Source: Corallococcus macrosporus DSM 14697
Lineage (GTDB): Bacteria > Myxococcota > Myxococcia > Myxococcales > Myxococcaceae
Assembly (NCBI RefSeq): GCF_002305895.1
Contig: NZ_CP022203.1
Location: forward strand, 1,280,501-1,344,500
DNA: 64,000 bases
Direction: 5' to 3'
Part shown: in pieces, positions 29,431-50,175 of the stretch
How positions within the stretch are numbered: the first letter of the stretch is position 1
Layout: each line of letters opens with the position of its first letter
Translations under genes and position numbers: made by a program
The notes under the pieces: model-generated
The model's database searches: none
What the model was told of the DNA's origin: nothing
Seen by the model: the letters and a program-made list of their open reading frames with translations, nothing else

Positions 29431-30948
<1,518 letters not shown>

Positions 30949-43066: not shown

Positions 43067-44983
43067 ATGATTGTCGGGACGGCGGGCCACATCGACCATG
43101 GCAAGACGTCCCTGGTGAAGGTGCTCACCGGCATCGACACCGACCGGTTGAAGGAAGAGAAGCGCCGGGGCATCACCCTGGAGCTGGGCTTCGCGCACCT
43201 CACGCTGGAGGACGGCGCCGTCGCCGGCGTGGTGGACGTGCCGGGCCACGAGCGCTTCGTGAAGGCCATGGCCGCCGGCGCGGGCGGCGTGGACTTGGTG
43301 GTGCTGGTGGTCGCCGCGGACGAAGGGGTGATGCCCCAGACGCGCGAGCACCTGGACATCTGCCGGCTGCTGGGCGTGCGGGCCGGCGTCATCGCGCTCA
43401 CCAAGGCGGACACGCTGGCGGCGCTGGGCGCGGAGTGGCGCGCGCTGGTGGAGGCGGACCTGGCCGCGCTCACGGCGGGGACCTTCCTGGAGGCGGCGCC
43501 GGTGGTGGCCTGCTCCTCCCGGACGGGCGAGGGGCTGGCCGCGCTGCGGGCGGCGCTCACCCGGGCCTCGGCGGCGCTGCCCGAGCGCTCCTCGGAGGGG
43601 CCCGCCTTCCTGCCCGTGGACCGCGTGTTCACCCTCAAGGGCTTTGGCACGGTGGTGACGGGCACGTTGCTGTCGGGCGCGCTGGCGGTGGAGGACGCGG
43701 TATCGCTGCTGCCTGGACTCCCGGGCCCGCTGCGCGTGCGCGGGATGCAGCGGCATGGCGCCGCCGTGCAAACCGTGGAGGCGGGGCATCGCGCGGCGGT
43801 GAACGTCACCGGCGTGGAGCCGGAGGCGCTGCACCGGGGCATGGTGCTGGTGCGCGCGGGCGAGCTGCCGGAGACGCGCATGCTCGACGTCGAGCTGACG
43901 CTGCTGCCCGCGGCCCCCTCCCCCCTGGCGCGCCGCTCGAAGCTGCTCCTGCACCTGGGCACCGCGCAGGTGGAGGCCACGGTGGCGCTGCTGGATGGCG
44001 AGCGGCTGGAGCCCGGCGCGACGGCGCTGGCGCAGCTCCGGCTGGGCACGCCCGTGGGGGCGCTGGTGGGCCAGCGCTTCATCCTGCGGGGCGCGCGCGC
44101 CCTGCCGGGGCGTGGCGCCACGGTGGCGGGAGGCCGCGTCCTGTCCATCACCCCGCCGCGGCGGCGCAAGGGCGGCGCGACGGCGCTGGCGCCGCTGCTG
44201 GAGGCGGACCCGGCGGGCCAGGTGGCCTGGCTGCTGCGCCAGGCGGGCTACCGGGGGTTGACGCAGCCGGAGCTGTTCGGCCGCTCGGCGCTCGGGCCCC
44301 GGGGGCTCACCCGCGCGCTGGAGTTGTTGGGGGCGCGGGGCGGCGCGCTGCTCGTCGACCGCGAGCGGCGGCTGTATCTCTCCGGCGACGTGTTCGAGGC
44401 GCTGCAGGCGCGCGCCCTGGCGCTGCTGGCCGCCTTCCATGAGCGAGAGCCCCTGCGCGACGGCCTGTCCCGCGAGGAACTGCGCCAGCGGCTGTCCGCG
44501 ACGCTGGATGCGCGGGTGTTCCAGCGGGTGTTGCAGGCCCTGGTGGAAGGAGGCCGGGTGGAGCTGGAGCGGGACGTGGCGCGCCTCAAGGGGCGGGGAC
44601 GGACGCTGACGCTGGGGGACACCGCCGCGCGGACCCGGCTGACGGCGGAGCTGTCCGCGGCCGGCCTGGCGCCTCCCTCGCTCGCCGAGCTGGAGCAGAA
44701 GCTCCAGCTCCCCGCGCCCCGGCTCCGGGAGTTGCTGGGGGGCCTGGTGGCGGAGGGCGCCGCGGTCCGCGTCTCGGAGGGCCTGTGGTTTTCACCCGGG
44801 GCCCTGGCGGGATTGCGCGAGCGGCTGGTTGCCCACCTGCGCGAGAAGAAGGAGATTACCACGCAGGATTTCAAGGAGATGGTGGGGCAGAGCCGCAAGT
44901 TCGTCATCCCCCTGTCCGAATACTTCGACCGGGAGAAGGTCACGCTCCGGGTGGGAGAGAAGCGGGTGCTGCGTCGCGGATGA
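43067..44983 (+). CDS. selB: Selenocysteine-specific elongation factor SelB
   Basis: 638 residues. GTPase motifs: G1 GHIDHGKT (7-14), DVPGHE, and TKAD; the domain order is GTPase, two beta-barrels, and winged-helix repeats in the last 250 residues for SECIS binding. It delivers Sec-tRNA to UGA codons and implies that this organism makes selenoproteins. selA, selD and tRNA-Sec are not in this window. The stop overlaps the ATG of the histidine kinase gene. Confidence 0.96.
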
Positions 44984-47468
44984 GTACGAAGCGCTACAGC
45001 GAGGCGGACCTCCGCGTCCTCGTCGACACCTTCCGCAACCCCATGCTGGCGGTGGTGGAGGGACGGGTGCTCGTGGCCAACGACGCCTATGTCGCGTTGG
45101 TGGGCCTGCGACGCGTCCAGGTGGAGGGCCGCCCCGTCATGGACTTCATCCAGCCGGAGGACCGCAGCCGCGTGGTGGAGCGCTACTGGCGGGTGGAGTC
45201 TGGCGCGCCGCTCCATGACGGCTCCCAGCTCTTCCAGGTCCCCTGCGCGGACGGAGTGGCGCGCGAGGTGGCCGTCACCGCGTCCCGCTTCGCGTTGGAG
45301 CGCGGGGGCGGGGGCCTGCTCCTCAACTGCACGCCCATGGAGAACCGGCCCCCGGAGATGTCGGTGGCCGAGCGGCTGGTGGAGACCTCCGCGGGCCTGG
45401 TGTCCGCGCACTCGGAGAACGCCGTCCGCCGCGTCGCGCTGAAGGGGCTGGAGGCCGCGGGCTTCCGGGCCCGGCTGCTGCGCTGGGAAGGCGAGGGCCT
45501 GCTGGCGCGGGACGGAGAGCCGCTGCCGGAGGACGCGCGCCTGGGGCTGGAGTCGCTCGCGGACGGGCGCCCCGTCTTCGGCGGCGCGGACCAGGCCGCG
45601 CCCAGCCACGTCTACCTGCCCGTGGGCGGCCCCCAGGCCGAGGTGCTCTGGGTGGAGGGCCACTGGGTGGCGCCGCGCCATGGCTCGGTGTTGATGCTGT
45701 TCGCCAAGGTGGTGGGCGCCGCGCTGACGGACGCGCGCGTGCAGGCGGAGAGCGCCCGCAGCCGCTGGGAGATGGAGGCCGTGGCGCAGGTGGCGCGCTT
45801 CGTCGCGCAGCCGTCCCCGCCCACGCAGGAGGACTTCCTGGCGCGCGTCGCGCCGCTGCTCCAGGCGGACGCCGCGGCCCTGCACCTGTCCTCACCGGCC
45901 GAGGGCGCGCTGACGCTGGCGGCTCACGTGGGCCTGCACGACGGGGCGGATGCCCAGCGGCTGGCGGGCGTGCTGTCGTGCGGCGCGGAGGGGGCCCTGT
46001 CGTCGGCCGCGGACGAGGCCGCGTTGGCGGCGCACTCCGGAGGGCGGCTGGGCGCGGGCGCGGCGGTGTGCCTGAAGCGCGGCGGTGAGGTGTGCGGCCT
46101 GCTCCAGGTGCTGCGCGCTCCGGGGCGCCCCTTCGACGAGCGGGACCTCCGCCTGCTGGGCACCTTGTCGGAGCTGCTGGTGACGCTGCTGGAGCAGCGC
46201 CGGCTGCGCGCGGAGTCCTCGCGTCAACTGGACGAAACGCGCCTGCTGCTGGATTTGGCGCGCACCACGTCCGGCGTGCTGGAGACGTCGAGCATCCTGG
46301 ACGTGGCCGCGGACTTCCTCGTCCGCCTGCTGGACGTGTCCAACTGCTACATCCTGCTCTACGACGAGAGCGCCCGGCTGCTGCGCGGCGCCGCGGCCTC
46401 CATCGCGCACCGCGAGTTCTTCCGCACGGTGGTGCTGCCGCTCCATGGTGACGGCCTGACGGCGCGCGTGGCCCGCGAGCGCAGGCCCATCGCGGTGGAG
46501 GACGTGGCCGCGGCCGAAGGTGGCTTCAACCCGGAGCTGGCGCACCGCTTCGACGAGAAGGCGCTGCTGGCGCTGCCGCTCACCTCCCGCGAGGAGCTCA
46601 TCGGCGTGGTGGTGGTGGACGACACCCGGGGGCCGCGCGCCTTCGGGCCGGAGCTCATCGAGCTGGCGGAGGCCACGTGTGGCCAGCTCGCGCTGTCCAT
46701 CGCCAACGCGCGCCTGTACGAGTCGCTGTGGGCCAGCTACGCGGAGCTGGCCGCCACGCGCGCGGAGATGGTGAAGCGCGAGCGGCTGGCCGCGCTGGGC
46801 GAGCTGTCCGCGATTGTCGCCCACGAGGTGCGCAACCCGCTGGGCGTCATCTTCAACGCGGTGGCCTCGCTGCGCCGGCTGCTGGTGCCGGGCGGCGACG
46901 CGGCCATGCTGCTGGACATCCTGGGGGAGGAGAGCGACCGGCTCAACCGCATCGTCGGGGACCTGCTGGACTACACGCGCCCTAGAGATCCGGTGCTCCA
47001 GCAGGAGGACCTGGGCCGCGTGCTCCAGGACTCGCTGGAGGCCGCGCGCATGCAGGGCGGCGGCGCGGACCGCTCCATCCGCATCCAGTCCGACGTGGAG
47101 CCCGGCCTGCCGCCGGTGCCCATGGACCGCCGCCTCATCCGCCAGGCGCTGGTCAACGTGGCGGTCAACGCCATCCAGTCCATGCCGCAGGGCGGGCTGG
47201 TGCAGGTGCGCGCGCGCCGGGAGGCCCACGCGGGGCGCGAGCAGCTTCGCATCGACGTGGTGGACCAGGGCCCGGGCATCCCCGCGGAGCTGCTCCACCG
47301 CGTCTTCGAGCCCTTCTTCACCACCAAGGCCCAGGGCACCGGGCTGGGGCTCGCCGTCGTCAGACGCATTCTCGAAGAGCACCGGGGCGAAATCGCCGTG
47401 GACAGCATCCCCGGGCGAGGTACCACCTTCACCTTCCGGCTGCCGCTCTCGCAGCCTCCGTCCTTCCC

Positions 47469-47472
<4 letters not shown>
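44980..47472 (+). CDS. Sensor histidine kinase with PAS and GAF domains
   Basis: 830 residues, no membrane segment, so a cytoplasmic sensor. An N-terminal PAS domain (LRVLVDTFRNPMLAVVEGRVLVANDAYV) is followed by three GAF-like regions (about 120-260, 270-400, 410-580). Then the HisKA dimerisation box with phospho-His near residue 614 (SAIVAHEVRNPLGVI), and the ATPase domain with VDQGPGIPAE and TGLGLAVV. It overlaps selB by four bases (ATGA) and the NtrC-type regulator by four bases, and is its obvious partner. Signal unknown. Confidence 0.94.
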
Positions 47473-48917
<1,445 letters not shown>

Positions 48918-48995: not shown

Positions 48996-49127
48996 GTGAA
49001 AAAGCCAAAGCGCTGAATTTGCTCAACTTTTTCACTTCTGAAACGCCATTGCAGCCCTGAAATGAAGCCAGGGGGCAGGGCCGGTGTCAGCCAGTTCTTC
49101 AAGTGCTTGAGAAAACTAGAGTTTCTC
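48996..49127. promoter_or_regulatory. Cluster of palindromes upstream of the pxr promoter (possible enhancer sites)
   Basis: Three inverted repeats lie between 14 and 160 bases upstream of the -24 element: gtgaaaaag / ctttttcac (48996-49004 and 49027-49035), tcaagtgcttga (49099-49110), and gagaaaa / gtttctc with a 5-base gap (49109-49127). Distance and symmetry suit binding sites for a dimeric enhancer-binding protein. The first could alternatively be a hairpin ending the upstream operon. Confidence 0.5.
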
Positions 49128-49140
49128 CCCGCGAGGCGGC

Positions 49141-49156
49141 TGGCACGGCGACTGCT
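49141..49156 (+). promoter_or_regulatory. Sigma-54 promoter of pxr
   Basis: tggcacg-gcga-ctgct: the -24 half is perfect, the -12 half has the invariant GC, with the standard 10 bases between the GG and GC doublets. Transcription would start near 49167. Confidence 0.85.
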
Positions 49157-49166
49157 AAAGGATTGC

Positions 49167-49288
49167 GCGGGACACATCGAAGCGAGGCTGAAGGCGGTTC
49201 CCCCCCACCCCTTCAGCACTTCCGGTGAGTCACCTTGAGAAGACCCGCGGCCCGGCACCTCTTTGGGGTGTCGGGCCGCCTTCTTTTC
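49167..49288 (+). ncRNA. pxr: Small RNA Pxr (developmental repressor)
   Basis: A transcript of about 120 bases is bounded by a sigma-54 promoter and an intrinsic terminator, with no coding frame. Structure: stem gctgaagg / ccttcagc (49187-49217) with a C-rich 15-base loop, a small hairpin at 49224-49234 (ggtg / cacc), and a terminator hairpin (49247-49279) followed by cttctttt. Position between the NtrC-type regulator and a GNAT gene is what I recall for pxr in M. xanthus, an sRNA that blocks the switch from growth to fruiting-body development. A C-rich loop could pair with G-rich ribosome binding sites. Ends inferred. Confidence 0.8.
49247..49288 (+). terminator. Intrinsic terminator of pxr
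   Basis: 13-base stem gcggcccggcacc / ggtgtcgggccgc with one G-U pair, 7-base loop, then the T-rich tract cttctttt. The strongest terminator in this region. Confidence 0.88.
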
Positions 49289-49332: not shown

Positions 49333-50175
49333 GTGGGTCCGCAAGACTCTCAGTGGGTGCTGAGGCCTGGACGTCCGGAGGACCACGCCGTCTTCGCCCA
49401 GCTCTTCCTGGAGCTGGGGGTGGATGACCCTCCGCCCTCCGCGCCGGTGTGGGCCGCGGAGATTGCCGGGTCCTCCCTGTTCGCGGAAGGCCCTCGGGGC
49501 GTGGGGGCCTATGCCGTGACGAAGGCGCTGGGCGACTTCGGGTTCGTGCAGCAGCTCGTGGTGGCGCCGTCCGTCCGGGGGCAGGGGCTGGGACGGCGGA
49601 TGATGTCGCACCTGGCCAGCCACCTGCGCGCGCAAGGGTGTACCCGCTGGGGCCTCAACGTGAAGCGGGACAACGTGCCAGCGCTCTCGCTCTACACCTC
49701 CATGGGGATGCAGCCGGCGCGTGAGGCCGCAACCCTGCGGCTGACGCGGGCCCACCTGGCGTCGCTCCCCGCCGCCTCCTCGGAAGGGGCCATGGTGCCG
49801 GTGTCTCCGGAGGACCGCGGCCCGCTGACGGAGGCCTTCGGGATGCTCCCTGGCAAGCTGGAGTCCTTCGCGGCCCTCGACTCGCACCGGCTGCTGGGGC
49901 TCGTTGATGCCCAGGCCCCCGCCCGCCGGTGGCTGGGGATGATGGACCTGCGCGCCGCCGCCGGGCCGCTCCTGTTCCCCTTCTTCGCCGTGTCCGCCGC
50001 GCACGCGCGGACGTTGCTGGAAGCCGCCTTCGAGCAGTTGGGGGAGGGCGCGTCGTCGCTGAACGTCGTGGTGACGGATGACGCGCCCCTGGTGCGCCTG
50101 CTCCGCGACGCGGGGGCGCAGACGCGCCTCGAAACGCTGGAGCTCCGTGGCCCGCTGACGGACGCGGCGCGCTGA
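49333..50175 (+). CDS. GNAT family acetyltransferase
   Basis: 280 residues from the GTG at 49333, which follows aagga at seven bases. The GNAT core is in the N-terminal half: VVAPSVRGQGLGRRMMSHL is the acetyl-CoA loop, then GLNVKRDNVPALSLYTSMGM. The C-terminal half looks like a second, degenerate GNAT-like domain (AFEQLGEGASSLNVVV). An upstream in-frame start at 49225 lies inside pxr and is rejected. The substrate is unknown. Confidence 0.88.
   Translation: MGPQDSQWVLRPGRPEDHAVFAQLFLELGVDDPPPSAPVWAAEIAGSSLFAEGPRGVGAYAVTKALGDFGFVQQLVVAPSVRGQGLGRRMMSHLASHLRAQGCTRWGLNVKRDNVPALSLYTSMGMQPAREAATLRLTRAHLASLPAASSEGAMVPVSPEDRGPLTEAFGMLPGKLESFAALDSHRLLGLVDAQAPARRWLGMMDLRAAAGPLLFPFFAVSAAHARTLLEAAFEQLGEGASSLNVVVTDDAPLVRLLRDAGAQTRLETLELRGPLTDAAR

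Follow-up and report, generated by a model that had tools for sequence, protein, structure and literature searches.

The small RNA Pxr of Myxococcus xanthus is a model for a small RNA gating multicellular development (PMC11928866). In this species, it keeps cells from developing fruiting bodies as long as nutrients are available (PMC5684412, PMC11928866), and it has been shown to exist in two forms, Pxr-L and Pxr-S, the latter disappearing on starvation. Published genetics shows that its synthesis requires PxrR (PMC5684412, PMC10217877, PMC11928866), and an enhancer-binding region is mentioned in Pxr papers (PMC5684412, PMC5568312). A C-to-A change of the fifth base of its loop kills the function, the RNA being still produced (PMC5684412, PMC5568312). 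The gene belongs to a pxrK-pxrR-pxr-pxrA-nuoN arrangement (PMC5568312, PMC11928866), in which pxrA is the gene most increased in the absence of pxr (PMC11928866). Published work traces the origin of Pxr back to the basal node of the Cystobacterineae (PMC5568312).

Our analysis concerns a stretch of 64,000 nucleotides of M. macrosporus DSM 14697, called hereafter the window. The Rfam covariance model of Pxr (RF01812) matches positions 49180 to 49287 of its forward strand with 129.2 bits (E = 5.9e-23), which exceeds the gathering cut-off of 80, and the alignment covers positions 1–109. This is the only copy in the entire single-contig genome (8,973,512 bp), and a search of a phage collection gave no match. 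The gene order is selB, pxrK, pxrR, pxr, pxrA, nuoN, with the pxrR orthologue upstream and the pxrA and nuoN orthologues downstream of pxr. The RNA is therefore the already known Pxr, orthologous to that of M. xanthus, as the initial annotation had proposed from the letters alone. The sigma-54 element that it had recognized is indeed present at 49141–49156 (11 of 12 consensus positions), the claimed GC-rich terminator with a T-tract corresponds to a strong hairpin followed by TTCTTTT, and Pfam assigns the flanking genes to an NtrC-type regulator and a GNAT protein, as announced. The 8-bp stem was also recovered, but its loop, cggttCCCCCCCaccc, contains seven C's and not the six counted earlier; three further pairs (GGU/ACC) lie above this stem, so that the single-stranded loop has 8 nt (UCCCCCCC). 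The features of the locus are the following:

44980–47472, forward strand: pxrK orthologue, sensor kinase with PAS, GAF, HisKA and HATPase domains (Pfam)
47469–48917, forward strand: pxrR (nla19/spdR) orthologue, NtrC-type response regulator (Pfam Response_reg, Sigma54_activat, HTH_8)
49030–49043, no strand assigned: dyad 1 of the upstream activating sequence (UAS), TTTCACTTCTGAAA, predicted PxrR site (comparison of loci)
49049–49062, no strand assigned: UAS dyad 2, TTGCAGCCCTGAAA, predicted PxrR site (comparison of loci)
49141–49156, forward strand: sigma-54 promoter TGGCACGgcgaCTGCT, TGGCACG-N4-CTGCT (11/12 consensus, conserved spacing)
49167–49179, forward strand: predicted 5′ leader, pairing with 49223–49234 (start placed 12 nt after the -12)
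49180–49287, forward strand: Pxr sRNA as annotated (Rfam RF01812)
49187–49217, forward strand: stem-loop 1 (SL1), loop UCCCCCCC at 49199–49206, closed by GGU (49196–49198) and ACC (49207–49209) (folding)
49223–49234, forward strand: arm annotated as SL2, predicted partner of the 5′ leader in a basal stem (folding, covariation)
49237–49288, forward strand: stem-loop 3 and intrinsic terminator with T-rich tail (Rfam, folding)
49333–50175, forward strand: pxrA orthologue (GNAT), which may act downstream of Pxr but is not universal (Pfam; PMC11928866)

Taken as a whole, the following account of this locus appears highly probable to us. PxrR, an NtrC-type activator, would bind the two TTKCA-N4-TGMAA dyads, which lie 80–112 nt upstream of the sigma-54 element, and activate this promoter. 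The RNA would begin near 49167, 13 nt ahead of the annotated gene; its leader would pair with the SL2 arm in a basal stem carrying stem-loop 1, and the terminator hairpin would follow. The loop would be the working surface of the RNA, pairing with a G-rich target RNA, and Pxr would block entry into development while nutrients last. Computation directly provides the family match, the conserved promoter and dyads, the near-uniqueness of these dyads, the covarying stems and the near-invariant loop; an equal role as repressor of development in M. macrosporus would be carried over by analogy from the genetics of M. xanthus.

Taken alone, the sigma-54 element is weak evidence, as such sites are not rare: two equally good ones were observed within the 64 kb for 0.55 expected. 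However, 119 of the 121 Pxr loci (83 genomes) keep the GG...GC of this element at nearly the same spacing from the RNA, most often with 53 nt between the -24 and the loop core, and it is this conservation that makes the promoter call more than chance. The only Sigma54_DBD match of the genome (rpoN) also falls within the window, at positions 30463–30939, some 18 kb ahead of pxr.

The dyads were first suggested by the comparison of the window with one Anaeromyxobacter-like locus and then counted across loci; the motif is therefore fitted to these first loci. At least one perfect dyad is present upstream of 112 of the 121 Pxr loci and a 9/10-position match upstream of four more, compared to a rate of 0.0004 for a perfect dyad in shuffled sequence. 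The five loci devoid of dyads are those of G122, G123, G125, G126 and G127, genomes without any PxrR orthologue, whose best PxrR hits show 44–47% identity (the level of paralogues) compared to 57–81% for orthologues elsewhere; three genomes (G049, G087 and G134) carry neither PxrR nor Pxr. The whole 8.97-Mb genome contains three dyads, two at pxr and a third one inside an hsdS-like coding sequence, which we take as a chance occurrence. The paired-dyad pattern is found in 100 of the 145 genomes of the order, and its reversed control in none. Since the dyads are lost only in loci of genomes devoid of PxrR and are nearly unique genome-wide, they probably constitute the PxrR binding site, and pxr is probably almost the sole target of PxrR. 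No published dyad motif for PxrR came up in the literature texts searched. Such a predicted near-private site makes the upstream input testable by two small mutations.

In genera g3 and g7, every tandem copy of pxr has a sigma-54 site to itself, and almost every one has a separate dyad pair as well. Dyads also precede Pxr copies that do not adjoin pxrR, in G121 (L062, L072), G093 (L082) and G088 (L083), so that PxrR could operate in trans at these copies. The cassette of promoter and pxr has the opposite orientation to pxrR in G050 (L073) and G054 (L075), where it stops about 30 nt from the 3′ end of that gene. Orthologues of pxrR (based on best identity) are found in most of the families searched within the order. 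The pxrK gene occupies the same place in genera near Myxococcus, but nothing recognizable as pxrK stands at this position in many of the deeper Myxococcaceae genera, where selB can lie directly upstream of pxrR (L057, L058, L060, L061, L070, L076); as other families carry a pxrK-like kinase at that place, we read this absence as a local loss or replacement. The record BNCN01000002.1 (L109), named Comamonas sp. KCTC 72670, holds a Myxococcus pxr and looks mislabelled.

The predicted RNA (49167–49288) folds with -67.3 kcal/mol (z = -5.5), a value that none of 200 dinucleotide shuffles equals. Of the 121 loci, 112 carry exactly the same 14-nt loop core, GGTTCCCCCCCACC, and, among the folds of 52 distinct sequences, 51 have an 8-nt loop and one a 9-nt loop. 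The stem pairs below the loop change from GC to AT, CG or TA with compensatory conservation of pairing; these pairs were recounted from individual folds because register shifts between genera blurred the ungapped alignment tried before (A1). The loop being almost invariant while the lower stem covaries, the pattern is that of constraint on the loop and not on the stem beneath it. The fifth base of the loop, C at 49203, is the one whose change inactivates Pxr in the published mutant (PMC5684412), and both this mutation and the near-invariance fit the reading of the C-run as a seed. The pairing of this C-run with G-rich ribosome binding sites, which the initial annotation had considered, is unproven.

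The searches for such a partner can be summarized as follows. Pairing of SL1 with the pxrA leader does not exceed that of shuffles: z is -0.4 in the window and averages -0.5 for 30 relatives. Among the loci, pxrA lies beside pxr only in g1, g8, g9, g20 and part of g3. As several genera retain Pxr without a neighboring pxrA, and as the leader pairing is at shuffle level, pxrA was rejected as a universal direct target. The complement GTGGGGGGGA occurs at 15 sites genome-wide compared to one for the reversed pattern, and none of the 15 was seen immediately ahead of a called start. The best of them, a 13-nt match, lies in a lipoprotein gene (L234), which was rejected as a conserved target because only three of the 58 other genomes of the family carry relatives of it. 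The genome-wide complement search and the relatives of its best site thus gave no conserved G-rich target site.

Outside Myxococcaceae, PxrR orthologues share 57–66% identity, and many of their genes are followed by an unannotated element that combines dyads, a sigma-54 site and, 53–56 nt further on, a hairpin with GGTCCCCCCCCGCC. These elements, called here mini-Pxr, mostly consist of one hairpin of about 77 nt with a C8 loop and ending in a T-run; their dyads match 9–10 of the 10 positions in most cases and are weaker (8–9) in L169. They are present in eight of the nine Anaeromyxobacter-like genomes (g31), between pxrR and nuoN; the ninth, 66% complete, shows dyads and a promoter at a contig end. 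Further copies occur in f6, in f3 (g33 and g36) and in f8, those of f8 not adjoining pxrR. Weaker look-alikes in f2, f9 and g32 (L178, L206–L211) are backed only by the architecture (dyads, sigma-54 site, C-loop spacing), their C-loop element having no match at E < 1 with R2, a model of the SL1 hairpin built from Myxococcaceae only. In f3 genomes, mini-Pxr is followed by a short ORF encoding a receiver domain (L153, 2989–3078, Pfam Response_reg, 32 bits; likewise in L159, L179, L191 and L201), which is also found at the unlinked f8 copy; it is possibly a partner or a target of mini-Pxr.

Other readings can be proposed for the relatedness of these elements as well as for the RNA itself. Mini-Pxr could have no kinship with Pxr, the C-loop having arisen by convergence in sigma-54-driven RNAs of separate origin: the Rfam Pxr model finds no match in these elements with E allowed up to 5, their 3′ halves differ, and several copies in f2, f8 and g32 do not adjoin pxrR. 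However, R2, despite its restricted origin, detects the copies of f3, f6 and f8 with 16–31 bits (L159, 30.8 bits, E = 2.3e-6, the best one; L160 and L161, 28.0; L201, 26.8; L153, 24.0; L166, 23.4). No hit at E ≤ 0.001 occurs in the 50 other genomes of the phylum, outside the order. Furthermore, the g31 copies share with pxr their dyads, promoter and 53–56-nt spacing in addition to their place between pxrR and nuoN. Convergence is therefore improbable in our opinion, and we consider these elements as Pxr-like, but not as members of RF01812 since Rfam does not detect them.

Regarding the RNA, the leader and the SL2 arm likely form the extra basal stem, which competes with the published SL2. In a test including one sequence per genus (25 genera), the native leader/arm pairing reaches -16.2 kcal/mol compared to -12.1 for swapped partners, and none of 20000 permutations is as good. 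Deeper genera (g10, g19, g21, g26) show this effect most clearly; it is weak among the close relatives of the Myxococcus group, and in the Myxococcus clade itself the native arm takes only rank 9 of 25. According to the published model of three stem-loops, the RNA would effectively run from about 49180, SL2 would be a real hairpin and leader pairing would be secondary. The Rfam consensus gives SL2 four pairs, with which the window agrees, SL2 does form in several genera, and the annotated gene alone behind its native upstream region is functional (PMC5568312). However, these constructs retained the leader together with this native region, SL2 is impossible in several genera (for example, GGTGAGCTTTTC in g3), and the leader and arm covary over the 25 genera, so that we regard this model as unlikely. 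The basal stem is a prediction that depends on the predicted start; it offers a concrete idea for the processing of Pxr-L to Pxr-S. It is likewise doubtful that the near-invariant C-loop is a protein-binding site rather than the partner of a G-rich RNA. The lack of a conserved complementary target among the searches made and the maintenance of the loop and its closing pairs as a structure throughout the order would suit a protein, whereas a single-stranded and homopolymeric loop is what is expected of a seed; the base change that abolishes function but not the RNA (PMC5684412) does not separate both readings.

The distribution of mini-Pxr agrees with the published node of origin in the Cystobacterineae and adds members without reported development: no fruiting bodies have been reported for Anaeromyxobacter and Vulgatibacter (PMC8561891), and A. 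dehalogenans 2CP-C is devoid of devRS and fruCD. Moreover, the reduced genomes of g23 (2.1–2.7 Mb) keep Pxr with its loop and basal stem, while PxrR and the dyads are gone. In three of the genomes devoid of PxrR (G125–G127; L066, L067, L068), Pxr lies beside nuoN with a degenerate sigma-54 site and no pxrR, and rpoN was found in two of the three. As Pxr-like RNAs occur in lineages without reported fruiting bodies and as g23 keeps Pxr without PxrR, it is unlikely that the conserved job of Pxr is the control of fruiting alone; a loss of fruiting with retention of Pxr for another use would lead to the same conclusion on this job. Pxr is, somewhat more probably than otherwise, an elaborated form of an older C8-loop RNA of about 77 nt of this order, switched by PxrR through its near-private site, with a shared ancestral target other than fruiting, and the control of development would have come later. 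The near-invariant C-loop, the presence in lineages without reported fruiting and the existence of a simple version with little more than this loop narrow the search to a target that is common to these lineages and readable by a C7–C8 loop.

The staphylococcal sRNAs with a UCCC motif are examples of RNAs whose C-rich loops base-pair to G-rich ribosome binding sites. They resemble Pxr in presenting a C-rich loop on a stem, which suggests a way of working but, for us, no claim of homology. The closest systems are Pxr itself and its paralogues: the tandem copies of Cystobacter (PMC5568312) have the loop and promoter of the window element, but the genome of the window has a single copy. Compared to the Pxr of M. 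xanthus (RF01812), the window element is alike in sequence, structure, sigma-54 promoter and gene neighbors and shows no difference. Beyond the description of this RNA, the present work adds the predicted UAS dyads, the predicted 13-nt leader with its basal stem, and relatives that fall well short of the Rfam cut-off.
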